Positions 3,586 to 46,270 of a stretch of DNA of 64,000 nt are shown here, one piece after another. A program made the translations under genes and the position numbers. The first letter of the stretch is position 1. Every line of letters begins with the position of its first letter. The notes under the pieces are model-generated. The model was given only the letters and a program-made list of their open reading frames with translations. It was not told where the DNA came from and did not search any database. The DNA is taken from assembly GCF_900112705.1 (NCBI RefSeq), contig NZ_FOMR01000005.1, positions 124,001 through 188,000 of the forward strand. Direction: 5' to 3'. This stretch comes from Lentibacillus persicus (GTDB taxonomy: Bacteria > Bacillota > Bacilli > Bacillales > Amphibacillaceae).

Positions 3586-3653
3586 ATTAAATTATAGAGG
3601 TGCCTGTCACGTCACGATTTTTTCATTTTATATCGAACGAAATTAGTGTGTAG

Positions 3654-3689
3654 GAGCCACTGGTTCGGATAGAGCTGGTGGCTCTTTTT
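3654..3689 (+). terminator. Hairpin with T-run after the peptide ABC operon
   Basis: GAGCCAC (3654-3660) pairs with GTGGCTC (3678-3684) and is followed by TTTTT, a rho-independent terminator form. The same arrangement (TATCGAAC, then GGTTC, then GGCTC and a T-run) occurs again at 4560-4615 before the DnaD-type gene. It may therefore be part of a repeated leader rather than only a terminator of the upstream operon. Confidence 0.6.
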
Positions 3690-3878
3690 ATATTTGGTCA
3701 AAAACGGCATCATTTTCCCCAACCCCAATCTGATAAAAAATATTTTTAAAATTCTACTATTCCCCTTTACTTTATCGAACAATTGTTCTATATTAAAGAT
3801 ACGATAATTATTGTCACAAACTCCCAGAAGGTTGCAGAAATTCTTTTACTTTTTATGCCACCAAATCAGCTTTCGAAA

Positions 3879-3909
3879 CGATAGTAATTATAAGAGATGT
3901 TCTATTAAT
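3879..3909 (+). promoter_or_regulatory. Candidate special promoter box pair upstream of the sigma-factor gene
   Basis: CGATAGTA (3879-3886) and TCTATTAAT (3901-3909) are separated by 14 bases. The leader of the DnaD-type gene has CGATAATA and TCTATTAAT separated by 13 bases (4677-4706). The pairing suggests a promoter class shared by the two genes, perhaps read by the sigma factor encoded here. This is an inference from two instances only. Confidence 0.35.
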
Positions 3910-3936
3910 CGATGCTAAATGAGGGGAGATTTTTAA

Positions 3937-4509
3937 ATGGGGGAAGATAGCGTTACGTTTGAAGAGATTTTTAAGCAGAATGAAAGAAGGATTCATTACC
4001 ATATTCACAAGCTGAACATAAGAGACCCGCATCAGGAGTTTTACTCAGAAGGTTTGGTTGCCATGTGGAATGCCTATGAGAAATATCAGCCGGACAAAGG
4101 CCCGATGGCGACCTATTTTAACTTTATCATCCGTAACCGTATGATCGACATGATTCGCAAGCGTCAAAAAGAACAGGAAACTGTAACGAAATACAAAGCG
4201 GAACATAAAACGGTTGCGGAAGACGGCAATTATTATCGCTACAACGACCGTGCCGCGTTGGTTTTGAATGTGGCCGAATCTGCCAGCACCCTGGAGAATG
4301 AAGCGTTTTGGCAAGACGTGCGCAGCCAGCTCTCGGAAAACCAATGGAAATGGGTGAGATTTTTCATAATAGAGGATATGTCTGTAAAAGATATCGCAGC
4401 ACAGGAAGGCGTCTCGGCCGAGGCAGTAAAAAGCTGGGGAAAAGAAGTCAGACGCAAACTGCGGGGGACAGAGGGACGTGATCGCCGTCCCCCTTTGCCA
4501 GGAGGGTAA
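3937..4509 (+). CDS. Sigma-70 family RNA polymerase sigma factor
   Basis: Small sigma-70-family protein of 190 residues, starting at ATG after GAGGGGAGA. The N-terminal half resembles region 2: the YSEGLVAMWNAYEKYQPDKG core and the basic NRMIDMIRKRQKEQE helix around residues 25-85. The C-terminal half has region 4, with the helix-turn-helix IEDMSVKDIAAQEGVSAEAV (about 145-165) and the basic VRRKLRG. The last dozen residues (TEGRDRRPPLPGG) are encoded by a GGGGGAC/GTCCCCC palindromic repeat (4463-4493), so the natural C-terminus was probably replaced by a repeat insertion. It neighbours a DnaD-domain gene behind a similar leader. The regulon is unknown; a role in a small mobile or phage-like module is possible. 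Confidence 0.8.
   Translation: MGEDSVTFEEIFKQNERRIHYHIHKLNIRDPHQEFYSEGLVAMWNAYEKYQPDKGPMATYFNFIIRNRMIDMIRKRQKEQETVTKYKAEHKTVAEDGNYYRYNDRAALVLNVAESASTLENEAFWQDVRSQLSENQWKWVRFFIIEDMSVKDIAAQEGVSAEAVKSWGKEVRRKLRGTEGRDRRPPLPGG
4463..4493. repeat. GGGGAC/GTCCCC palindromic repeat inside the sigma-factor reading frame
   Basis: GGGGGAC (4463-4469) and GTCCCCC (4487-4493) form the ends of a hairpin, with an inner GGGACG/CGTCCC pair. The same core occurs at 5541, 10546, 37556, 45556 and 52421. Here it supplies the C-terminal codons of a protein. A further GGGG..CCCC pair lies at 4533-4546. Confidence 0.65.
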
Positions 4510-4666
4510 GGGGATCTCTCAATAGCATTGTTGGGGTCTGTCCCCGGGCCTCCCGTATTTTATCGAACACCATATACGCATCAGCTGTCGGTTCAGTACC
4601 GGCGGCTCTTTTTTTAATGAAAAACTTTTTTCATAAATTTTTTCCCATTTTCACACCCCCTAATCG

Positions 4667-4706
4667 TTATCGATTTCGATAATAGCTATGAGGGGGGTCT
4701 ATTAAT
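4667..4706 (+). promoter_or_regulatory. Palindrome and promoter-like box pair upstream of the DnaD-type gene
   Basis: TTATCGATTTCGATAA (4667-4682) is a 16-base inverted repeat. It overlaps CGATAATA (4677-4684), which is followed after 13 bases by TCTATTAAT (4698-4706). The box pair matches the one before the sigma gene. The palindrome could be a repressor site. No standard sigma-A promoter of better quality was found nearby. Confidence 0.35.
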
Positions 4707-4749
4707 GATTTCTCTTGATTTGTATACATAAAATGGGAGGATGAACTGA

Positions 4750-5697
4750 GTGAATTACATAAAAGAGATCAATGCGTTTTATGATGCCCTTGAATGCAAC
4801 CCGTTGTCCGCATCGGCCGTTACGCTGTGGCACGCGCTGATGCACATTAATAATAAAGCGATGTGGAAAGCGTCATTTACCGTTGCGGGACCGGTTTTGC
4901 GGTTAAAGTCGGGGCTGACTGAGAGTTCATTTAAGCGCGCCAGAACAGAATTGAAAGAAAAAGGCTACATTGACTACGAATCCCGGGGGAACGGCCAGGC
5001 ACCAACGTATCGAATGGTTGGCCTGTCGCAGGGCAGGATGTATGATGCAAATTTTCATGCGGACGAAGCGGAAAGCCACTGTGACGATTTGCATGCGGAC
5101 CAACAGGTGAATCAGGGCGTGGACCAAGCGGTGAGCGGCGGTGCGACCCAACACATGAACCGGGAAGTGGACCACAATGTGGACCGGAGCGCGGCCCCAT
5201 TAGTTAAACAAAAGAAAGACAAAACAAAACGAAACGATACAAAACAATTAATGGCTACAGCAGACAACGAGACTTCAGCGGATATTTTTGCGTTTTATCA
5301 AAATAACTTTGGTCCTGTCAGTCCCTATGTGACCGATGCATTGCTGAATTGGGTGCGTGACGTCGGTGAGGCGCTTGTGCTCGACGCGATGAAGCGGGCG
5401 CTGGATCGGGATAAGCGAAACTGGGGCTATGTCAGAGCAATTCTGCAGGACTGGGCAGCCAAAGGCATCACCAGCGTGGAAGCCGTACAGGCCGAAGAAG
5501 CAGCCTTTCGCCGAAACAGGCAGCATCGGCCGAGTAGGGAGGGGACTGTCCCCCGGGAAGTAGTACCCGAATGGTTTAAAGAACAGAAACGGGAAGAAAA
5601 GCTAAAGCGGGAAGCGAAAAAAACCGAAGTACCGACGCGAAGTCCAGAGTCCGATCAGGAATTCGACCGGTTGTTGGCGAGTTTTCGGAGCGGATGA
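4750..5697 (+). CDS. DnaD-domain / replication-initiation type protein
   Basis: 315-residue protein starting at GTG 4750, nine bases after GGGAGG. Residues 1-100 look like a winged-helix replication-protein domain (LWHALMHINNKAMW, then a recognition-type SSFKRARTELKEKGYIDYES). A low-complexity, Asp/Gln/Val-rich linker spans about 110-160, followed by a basic stretch. Residues 175-255 match the DnaD C-terminal domain (FAFYQNNFGPVSPYVTDALL, DRDKRNWGYVRAILQDWAAK). The tail carries a GGGGACTGTCCCC insertion (5541-5553), coding REGTVPRE, and ends in SPESDQEFDRLLASFRSG. A degenerate second copy of the C-terminal third lies at 10681-11007. Such proteins act in replication initiation of phages, plasmids and Firmicutes chromosomes; the role here is not known. 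Confidence 0.78.
   Translation: MNYIKEINAFYDALECNPLSASAVTLWHALMHINNKAMWKASFTVAGPVLRLKSGLTESSFKRARTELKEKGYIDYESRGNGQAPTYRMVGLSQGRMYDANFHADEAESHCDDLHADQQVNQGVDQAVSGGATQHMNREVDHNVDRSAAPLVKQKKDKTKRNDTKQLMATADNETSADIFAFYQNNFGPVSPYVTDALLNWVRDVGEALVLDAMKRALDRDKRNWGYVRAILQDWAAKGITSVEAVQAEEAAFRRNRQHRPSREGTVPREVVPEWFKEQKREEKLKREAKKTEVPTRSPESDQEFDRLLASFRSG
5541..5553. repeat. GGGGAC/GTCCCC palindrome inside the DnaD-type gene
   Basis: GGGGACTGTCCCC is a perfect 6-bp inverted repeat with one central base. It belongs to the family listed at 4463 and is kept in frame within the C-terminal tail. The homologous fragment at 10681-11007 has different sequence at this point, which supports insertion after duplication. 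Confidence 0.6.
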
Positions 5698-6080
5698 TGG
5701 GGCTTCCTGGTTTTTAGTATTTTCCGGATGTGTCATATAAGGTTTGTGAGCTTTTCAGGTGGTTATACAAAAATTTTAAATTTGTCATATTCAGAAGGGA
5801 AACAGCCTTTTCTGTCGAATATATATTAAAGAGGGCACTAACTCAGGTTGTTATAAAACTATATTACATACGCAAACAGAGCACAGAGAGTGTTTAAGCC
5901 CTCATGAATTACAGGGAAGGACAGAAAAGAAGTTATATGACACAACCAATAAAATCGTTCTCGCTTTATCGTTAGTTCCCATCGTTGCCAAGTGATTGTA
6001 GGAATCTTTTAACATAGATTTCGTCAATAACTGATGATATACTACAATAGGAAATAAACTAGAATTCGGAGGGTTTACGT
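5698..6080. other. Intergenic region upstream of the sulfate operon
   Basis: No gene is supported. The only promoter-like element I can point to is TATACT at 6038-6043, preceded by TGA; no convincing -35 partner is present. I saw no S-box or T-box landmark that would stand up by eye. The sat ribosome site is GGAGGG at about 6068. Confidence 0.5.
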
Positions 6081-10605: not shown

Positions 10606-10667
10606 ATGGGCTGGCGCAACGAAACATGTGCCGGTGCAAGCAAGATATGGGCCGGAAGATCAAAGCG
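10606..10667. repeat. ATGGGC-type 20-21 bp periodic array, locus A
   Basis: ATGGGC, ATGTGC and ATGGGC begin at 10606, 10626 and 10647, i.e. at intervals of 20 and 21 bases. The first unit starts six bases after the end of the GGGGAC palindrome, the same offset as at 45592. The bases between are only loosely similar (often CGG then AA). No gene is seen in it. Confidence 0.55.
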
Positions 10668-10680
10668 AAACTGAGGCTGT

Positions 10681-11007
10681 GTTAAAGCAATTCTGCTGGA
10701 CTGGGCAGCCAAAGGCATCACCACCGTGGATTCTGCACAGGCCGAAGAAGCAGCCCTTCGCCGGAACAGGCAGCAGCAGACGGAATGGCGGAGGTCGAGT
10801 GGAGAGGTCGCTAGTGGGAGCGGCGATGGTGTGGGTGGCGCCAGTTGGCATGGCGCCGAATCCCGGGGAGTCACACCCGAATGTTTTAAAAAGCGCGATA
10901 TTGAAAAGAGGCAGAAGCGTGAAGCTAAGAAAGCCGAAGCACCGACGCGAAGTCCAGAAGCCGAGCAGGAGTTCCAGCGTTTGCTGGCGAGTTTTCGGAG
11001 CGGGTGA
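10681..11007 (+). pseudogene. 3' fragment of a second DnaD-domain gene
   Basis: The sequence is clearly homologous to the last part of the gene at 4750-5697. Shared protein segments are LDWAAKGIT, AQAEEAALRRNRQ and the tail APTRSPEAEQEFQRLLASFRSG split by a divergent middle. The N-terminal winged-helix and most of the DnaD domain are missing, and no start codon or ribosome site fits. The middle contains a glycine/serine-rich stretch in place of the REGTVPRE segment of the intact gene. It lies between two ATGGGC arrays and beside a GGGGAC repeat pair, so it may be the scar of a recombination or mobile event. Confidence 0.75.
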
Positions 11008-11066
11008 TGGGGTGTGTGATGGGGAGCGCCCCCATGGACGTTAACAGGAGCGGGAAGAAGCGTGAT

Positions 11067-45921: not shown

Positions 45922-46270
45922 ATGGTCAGTAATCCGCCCGACTACGGCGGTTAACTGACTCTAAATGCCCGATTCGGTTCGGGGCTGCAGGATGCAGGTC
46001 ACAAAGGCGTTGCCACAGGACAAGGAAAACTGCGACAGCGATACTTCGCACGAAGAAAAAGTGCTTTTCTTTTTCGAGGACGTGGCGAACTTAGCCTTTG
46101 TTCTCCTGTTTTCAGCGGCGAAAACCATTCCGCTGAATGAAGTTTCACTTTTCCCCGCATGTAATGGTCAGTAATCCGCCAGACTACGGCGGTTAACTGA
46201 CCCTAAATGCCCGATTCGGTTCAACTAACATTCAGCGGGGAAACCATTCCGCTGAATGAAGTTTCACTTT
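45922..46270. repeat. Duplicated hairpin modules in the treP leader
   Basis: Module A is 59 bases long and occurs at 45922-45980 and 46164-46222 with two differences; it contains a near-palindrome (GTCAGTAATCCGCC against GGCGGTTAACTGAC). Module B occurs at 46111-46151 and 46231-46270; its second copy has a perfect stem CATTCAGCGG/CCGCTGAATG (46229-46238, 46249-46258). In copy 2 modules A and B are 8 bases apart; in copy 1 they are 130 bases apart because of an insertion. The whole lies between the tre promoter and the treP start. Confidence 0.8.
45995..46108. repeat. MITE-like hairpin insertion inside the treP leader
   Basis: Left arm CAGG (45995), ACAAAGGC (46001-46008), GCCAC (46012-46016) is mirrored on the right by GTGGC (46082-46086), GCCTTTGT (46094-46101), CCTG (46105-46108). 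An inner imperfect hairpin of CGAAGAAAAAG against TTCTTTTTCG type lies at about 46049-46075. It separates modules A and B of copy 1 only, so it looks inserted. The 69-codon open frame across it has no ribosome site. Confidence 0.55.

Follow-up and report, generated by a model that had tools for sequence, protein, structure and literature searches.

Introduction

UviA, a clostridial sigma factor, is reportedly UV-inducible and is said to use a promoter that differs from TGCCMCY-N16-CGATWRTA, the promoter-like element with which this report is concerned. In the excerpted text of PMC4885068, it is placed together with TcdR, BotR and TetR in a clostridial sigma group of bacteriocin and toxin genes. 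A second point of comparison is sigma-I, for which the excerpts of PMC4711584 and PMC6056542 give the Bacillales consensus ACCCCC--AA-15N-CGAA; further ones are SigO-RsoA of Bacillus subtilis and phage replication modules that include a DnaD-like helicase loader. The locus that we compare with these systems lies in Lentibacillus persicus (GCF_900112705.1; genome G000, 3.31 Mb in 23 contigs), within a 64,000-nucleotide stretch of contig NZ_FOMR01000005.1, here called the window, to which positions refer unless another contig is named. In this window, a gene for a sigma-70 family factor and a gene for a DnaD-type protein are neighbours. In the open-licence papers searched, no title or abstract opening deals with this sigma factor, with the element or with the array of paired sites described below.

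From the comparisons reported here, we consider it likely that the two genes form a two-stage circuit, in which a LexA-controlled pulse of the sigma factor would be followed by self-amplification and by activation of the DnaD-type gene.

Results

Comparison of the stretches upstream of relatives yielded a recurring unit, a −35-like TGCCMCY followed after 16 bases by CGATWRTA. As judged from this recurrence, CGATARTA belongs to a promoter-like element as its −10 half, and 16 bases separate it from the −35 half on its upstream side. An earlier reading of the DNA, made from its letters alone (the sequence-only reading), had instead paired CGATARTA with a second box, TCTATTAAT, further downstream. 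The features of the locus are as follows, with lengths in amino acids (aa).

3652 to 3686, + strand: intrinsic terminator 3' of the upstream oligopeptide-transport-type operon (terminator scan; fold −26.6 kcal/mol, z −6.7)
3766 to 3794, + strand: sigma-A-like promoter TTTACT-N17-TATATT, 5' of the sigma gene (consensus scan, 9/12; relatives with a similar layout)
3776 to 3788, + strand: LexA (DinR)-type box CGAACAATTGTTC, within the spacer of the sigma-A-like promoter (scan; the same box type occurs twice 5' of the genome's own lexA)
3856 to 3886, + strand: proposed sigma-dependent autoregulatory promoter TGCCACC-N16-CGATAGTA (recurrence in relatives' leaders)
3901 to 3909, + strand: TCTATTAAT, second box of the sequence-only reading, in the proposed 5' leader of the sigma gene (weakly conserved)
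3937 to 4509, + strand: sigma-70 family factor, 190 aa, regions 2 and 4 (Pfam, NCBIfam)
4583 to 4607, + strand: intrinsic terminator 3' of the sigma gene, between the sigma and DnaD-type genes (terminator scan, fold)
4654 to 4684, + strand: proposed sigma-dependent promoter CACCCCC-N16-CGATAATA of the DnaD-type gene (recurrence in relatives' leaders)
4698 to 4706, + strand: second copy of TCTATTAAT, in the leader of the DnaD-type gene (exact match)
4750 to 5697, + strand: DnaD-type protein, 315 aa, GTG start (TIGR01446, PHROG_186)

With a strict pattern, YRCCMCY-N16-CGATWRTA, five sites were found in G000, compared with none for the reversed pattern that served as a control. One lies before the sigma gene, two before DnaD-type genes (that of the window and a truncated one, C10:119886) and two before DUF1659-DUF2922 operons, one of which includes a YvrJ gene (DUF1659, DUF2922 and YvrJ were confirmed by Pfam). 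All five are in the correct orientation and 22-65 bases 5' of an ATG or GTG start. The distance from the end of the element to the start codon is 50 bases for the sigma gene and 65 for the DnaD-type gene, and the two DUF1659 genes have a GTG 13 bases and an ATG 22 bases past the element. Because a relaxed scan of G000 (3 mismatches) gave as many sites as its control, 22 of each, weak sites in this genome cannot be claimed.

Among 82 leaders of sigma relatives, a set in which the window gene and truncated relatives are counted, 39 contained the relaxed pattern, compared with a mean of 0.8 and at most 3 in 60 shuffles. It stands 5' of 32 of the 69 near-full-length relatives placed on a tree, and its presence clusters there (12 changes versus 23 in shuffles, with 0 of 500 as low); other branches carry different leaders, as judged by eye. 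A self-controlled sigma factor, which the sequence-only reading had suggested, would thus remain the best interpretation, by way of this element rather than of the box pair then named. Likewise, both genes probably belong to one regulon, as had been proposed from the other boxes, since the same promoter-like element lies 5' of each. A logo of the element was made from 66 sites picked by pattern and is independent only outside that pattern, in the T-tract, the AT-rich upstream stretch and the purines after the −10.

The shared leader itself is genuine, but the wrong boxes had been matched within it. TATCGAAC is present in both leaders (3631-3638 and 4561-4568), as are the CGATARTA boxes CGATAGTA (3879-3886) and CGATAATA (4677-4684), and TCTATTAAT follows these (3901-3909 and 4698-4706) at distances of 14 and 13 bases. 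Allowing a gap of 10-16 bases, the box pair occurs exactly twice in the window and in none of 100 shuffles, and the genome-wide search that had been suggested as a check returned 2 matches in 3.31 Mb, both at the sigma/DnaD locus. As a second promoter box, however, TCTATTAAT was rejected because of its poor recurrence in other leaders and at other sites. Among 34 sigma leaders that carry the element, it is exact in only 3, namely that of the window and two copies in genome G010 (letter shuffles, 0), and present with two mismatches in 7 (2.0 in letter shuffles); at other sites it is exact in 0 of 90 and present with one mismatch in 3 of 90 (0.7 shuffled). It lies 13-15 bases 3' of the −10 and is retained chiefly in Lentibacillus relatives. 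At related loci, it is the upstream element that recurs. TATCGAAC is nothing special by copy number, with 5 copies in the window against 1.76 expected and 4 of 100 shuffles reaching 5; one copy (3773) belongs to the LexA-type box.

The hairpins with T-runs that had been taken as part of a common control leader are real and strong (3652-3686 and 4583-4607). They sit 3' of an oppF-type gene and of the sigma gene, and because each comes after the preceding gene, we read them as terminators of those genes. As a shared regulatory leader they were rejected, terminator scan and folding indicating ordinary terminators. Folding gave no support for 5' RNA structure in either leader (z −0.39 and −0.04).

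The sigma protein matches TIGR02937 (sigma70-ECF; 3.9e-19, 68.9 bits against a cut-off of 42.9) and Pfam Sigma70_r2 (9e-13), with region 4 at ~1e-4, under the Pfam cut-off. Having regions 2 and 4 and nothing else large, it falls into the small (ECF-like) sigma-70 class. PRK06759 is its best NCBIfam match, though at 76.8 bits against a curated cut-off of 133, and the sigma-I model TIGR02895 is matched over residues 28-91 only, at 33.6 bits (3.1e-8) against a curated cut-off of 185; a true sigI elsewhere in G000 scores 272.8 bits. Among solved structures, the closest in sequence is 3mzy, named sigma-H factor (2.7e-9). Matches at E 1e-3 or better were found in 144 of 146 family genomes, many of them weak and maybe to other sigma factors. 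An element-bearing relative compared between the close species G007 and G011 gave a nonsynonymous divergence (dN) of 0.034 and a synonymous divergence (dS) of 0.43.

No tblastn match to the sigma protein was found among 50,697 phage records, a scan of viral contigs gave no close relative, and plasmids gave two matches at 27-31% identity. We take its matches to the phage sigma profiles PHROG_351 (8.5e-14) and PHROG_1740 (1.4e-11) as general sigma-70 similarity. A selfish or phage-derived module, as the sequence-only reading had pictured the pair, would call for close phage relatives of both genes; such an origin is not supported for the sigma gene, whose relatives are mostly chromosomal and which gave no close phage relative in these scans, and only the DnaD-type protein is phage-like. 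A scan for anti-phage defence returned a single short match (E 0.0028).

Region-2-only sigma fragments of 66-82 aa were also seen (L017, L020, L022, L024, L014 and L036). Four of the six lie directly 5' of a full sigma gene, and some have their own element or LexA-type box. Tested as possible RsoA-like partners, they gave a dN/dS of 0.32, on very few changes.

Boxes of the type that occupies the spacer of the sigma-A-like promoter recur in relatives: GAACN4GTTC is present in 15 of the 82 sigma leaders (in shuffles, 0.07 on average and never more than 1), followed in 13 of these 15 by a TATAAT-like hexamer, as judged by eye, and in 0 of 30 DnaD leaders. On the 69-row sigma tree, 14 relatives have the box and 10 have box and element together. 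The lexA gene of G000 (TIGR00498, 8.3e-74) itself has two boxes of the same type upstream. With a box that overlaps its promoter and recurs in relatives, the sigma gene resembles, at the level of sequence, a member of the LexA (SOS) regulon, and it is probably triggered by DNA damage through this putative LexA box. Neither the box nor the wider array of sites described below had figured in the sequence-only reading.

The DnaD-type protein matches TIGR01446 (DnaD_dom, 2.4e-18) and PHROG_186 (DnaD-like helicase loader, 1e-47) and has matches in 96 phage records, the best being Aeribacillus phage AP45 at 40% identity. By these matches it is clearly phage-like, of the phage helicase-loader type. 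Because a terminator separates it from the sigma gene, the DnaD-type gene needs a promoter of its own. A DnaD gene is a direct target of the element in G000, in G040 (site at 3676921, DnaD match starting at 3676992) and in Oceanobacillus polygoni (L084), and it follows an element-bearing sigma gene, as in an operon, in G002, G006 and G010 (L025, L027 and L032). The 3' half of the window gene (5413-5702) is repeated at 10663-11012, with 88% and 75% identity, as a broken fragment beyond the sulfate-assimilation genes. Short repeated units, e.g., ATGTGCCGG and CTCCGGAACATAT, were observed in L002, between sigma and DnaD paralogues, and at the end of L005.

Across the family, one or more strict sites occur in 86 of 146 genomes. 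With the reversed control pattern no genome exceeded 3 sites, and 1-3 sites per genome are therefore background. Nine genomes have at least 16 sites: G003 (85), G010 (65), G008 (52), G007 (48), G011 (37), G040 (36), G005 (27), G012 (23) and G004 (16). In every one of them the element lies 5' of a sigma relative, and in six (G004, G005, G007, G010, G011 and G040) that element is strict. In G003 and G007, 78 of the 80 unique sites that were read have A at position 5 of the −35, and C stands there in 14 of 15 sites read from G010 and 21 of 27 in G005, in each case as before the genome's own sigma genes. This letter pattern speaks for reading of the sites by the small sigma family and singles out no paralogue. 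Because pairs and sites of one genome are in part related copies, the p-values for the −35 letter, and for the pair phasing and locus spacing given below, are too favourable to an undefined extent.

Around the sites, 53 stretches were fetched in listing order (33 from G003, 17 from G007 and 3 from G005), of which 52 were analysed and one, longer, was left out. Although open reading frames (ORFs) of at least 100 aa cover 76% of these stretches, 48 of the 52 loci lie outside them. Gene directions around the 48 intergenic loci are −− for 14, ++ for 13, +− for 11 and −+ for 10, and the loci comprise 30 divergent pairs, 5 convergent pairs and 13 single sites. Some array loci do precede genes, in particular DUF1659 genes. 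On contig C1 of G003, 27 pairs, 24 of them divergent, account for 54 of the 73 sites; the corresponding numbers are 23 pairs, 22 divergent, with 46 of 65 sites for G010, and 8 pairs, 7 divergent, with 16 of 36 sites for G040.

The gaps from −35 to −35 in 51 distinct divergent pairs of the fetched loci fall into groups of 9 bases (1 pair), 16-24 (28 pairs, half at 19-20), 27-33 (12 pairs, five at 30), 37-41 (6 pairs, three at 40) and 100-109 (4 pairs). For the 47 gaps of 41 bases or less, the best period is 10-10.5 bp (R 0.52 versus 0.13 when jittered, a value that 0 of 20,000 jittered copies reached). Loci are distributed more regularly than expected at random on G003 C1 (46 loci; coefficient of variation (CV) 0.52 versus 0.98, 0 of 20,000 as low) and in G010 (CV 0.69, p 0.004), and not significantly so in G040 (CV 0.86, p 0.25). 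These figures are approximate, since sites may fall anywhere under the null, weak sites escape the search and the copies are in part related to each other. Places common to two genomes are L157/L165, L107/L172 and L108/L167.

Beside the array, a dispersed hairpin repeat, TTTTCTGC-N4-GCAGAAAA, often with TTTTCGGC..GCCGAAAA, was observed in stretches of G007:C5 and G011:C3 (L287-L305), in some cases 15 bases 3' of a site. An apparent decayed divergent pair is found in G000 at C12:309825-309912 (L217; sites 309825 and 309882), perhaps a relic of a former array.

The sigma/DnaD pair is flanked by what we take, from the ORFs, to be an oligopeptide-transport operon and a sulfate-assimilation cluster. 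Elsewhere in the window, an Rfam Bacillaceae-1 RNA (45984-46110, − strand) adjoins short direct repeats at 45922-46270.

Discussion

The element, its position, its recurrence and the LexA-type box can be read directly from the DNA. From them, we infer a course of events in which DNA damage would remove LexA, presumed to bind the putative box, and the sigma-A-like promoter would yield a pulse of sigma factor. The window sigma, rather than a paralogue, would then join core RNA polymerase to read TGCCMCY-N16-CGATWRTA, its own element giving positive feedback and the same element switching on the DnaD-type gene. The likeliest output after DNA damage would be a phage-type helicase loader, if the DnaD-type protein acts as such, together with small proteins from the DUF1659-DUF2922 operons.

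Several observations weigh against this circuit. CGAACNNNNGTTC is not enriched genome-wide (10 sites versus 20 for the control pattern), so that the box counts only by its position and recurrence, and 67 of the 82 sigma leaders lack a LexA-type box. The relaxed element is present in only 4 of 30 DnaD-relative leaders (shuffle mean 0.37, maximum 3), and in G004 and G009, which do have sites, the DnaD matches are only weak (E 1e-4 to 1e-9). In G003, G008 and G012, the sigma gene's element is only a variant, with other spacing or one changed base; the sigma gene of G004 has C at −35 position 5, yet 10 of 16 sites have A, and G040 is mixed at this position (10 C and 6 A of 16 read). The circuit is slightly weakened by the G004 mismatch and by the variant elements in three genomes. 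Finally, G000 has three intact members of the sigma family, the window gene included, any of which might read the element in this genome.

For the array in relatives, a tentative reading is that it consists of paired promoters fired by the sigma family for a purpose other than expressing neighbour genes, and that G000 could keep only a remnant of it. Most pairs point away from each other and a few toward each other, and they hold the 10-10.5-bp helical phasing over an AT-rich centre. Emergency origins, genome-wide transcription and a dispersed repeat are the candidate explanations of the array. After DNA damage, the pairs could be emergency replication starts, at which back-to-back polymerases would open the DNA and the DnaD-type loader would serve; alternatively, the array could provide a genome-wide wave of transcription that helps lesion finding. 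The origin idea is weakened by the weak DnaD matches of G004 and G009 and by those of G003, which is richest in sites and has a 204-aa frame matching residues 1-99, plus a 37% match.

It is also possible, if doubtful, that the divergent pairs are a dispersed non-autonomous repeat (MITE- or REP-like) with a captured promoter, the even spacing reflecting insertion preference. The location of 48 of 52 loci outside ORFs of at least 100 aa fits such a repeat, as do loci that are 75-86% identical over about 90-220 bases around the pair and a separate hairpin repeat that lies 15-16 bases 3' of 4 of 90 sites and is also found without a site. However, over the sites read, spacers and centres vary while promoter positions are constant (those within the search pattern being fixed by site selection), and the pair gaps follow the 10-10.5-bp period. 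At one site unique to G011, the G007 sequence aligned with it is a decayed copy rather than an empty site, and no empty sites with target duplication were seen in the compared parts of the two genomes (180 and 200 kb). At three aligned G007/G011 places, the motif is unchanged except for one −35 base, a weak argument, as the flanks clearly differ at one place only.

An unlikely alternative to reading by the small sigma family is that the host sigma-I reads the element and that the small sigma gene is merely one of its targets. The Bacillales sigma-I consensus, in the excerpt of PMC4711584, resembles CACCCCC..CGAT, and of 12 genus genomes 11 have a full sigma-I that passes the cut-off, the exception, G002, having 0 strict sites. 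Still, the element, with N16 and CGAT, departs from the ACCCCC--AA-15N-CGAA class, and site numbers range from 0 to 85 across genomes while sigma-I is nearly constant. G001 has a sigma-I and 3 sites, and no intact sigma relative with the element. Upstream of 11 true sigI genes we find, by eye, CACCCAWAAA followed by CGAA (9) or CGTA (2), not TGCCMCY-N16-CGATWRTA, and this difference of the genus sigI promoters disfavours sigma-I as the reader.

That the leaders are alike by chance or local duplication, without function, is very improbable: short few-copy repeats are often chance and a second copy of the 3' half of the DnaD-type gene lies nearby, but the box pair is absent from 100 shuffles, and the strict element occurs 5 times versus 0 in the genome and recurs in other genera.

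If the circuit is as we propose, the DNA-damage response of a bacterial family would gain a sigma factor, with a promoter sequence that allows its regulon to be read from genomes. An array of phased promoter pairs at regular distances and with no obvious genes would, if real, be a new kind of chromosome feature, and it would offer a direct test of dispersed transcription in replication restart or DNA repair after damage.

Compared by description, the UviA/TcdR group shares with the window family a small alternative sigma factor with few target genes; unlike that group, the relatives here are mostly chromosomal, lie in one family and have a DnaD-type target. SigI-RsgI is similar in its C-rich −35 followed by a CGA-type −10, and in a weak region-2 match, but the match covers residues 28-91 only, the element has N16 and CGATWRTA, and the sigI promoters of the genus differ. 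SigO-RsoA has a parallel in the YvrJ-family gene in one target operon, YvrJ being linked to SigO, and in the region-2-only fragments beside some full sigma genes, whereas here a single protein has regions 2 and 4 and the fragments seem to have decayed at least in part. Phage replication modules that have a DnaD-like helicase loader find their counterpart in the DnaD-type protein, which falls in PHROG_186; in contrast to them, this locus has transport and sulfate genes as neighbours and a sigma gene without a close viral relative.

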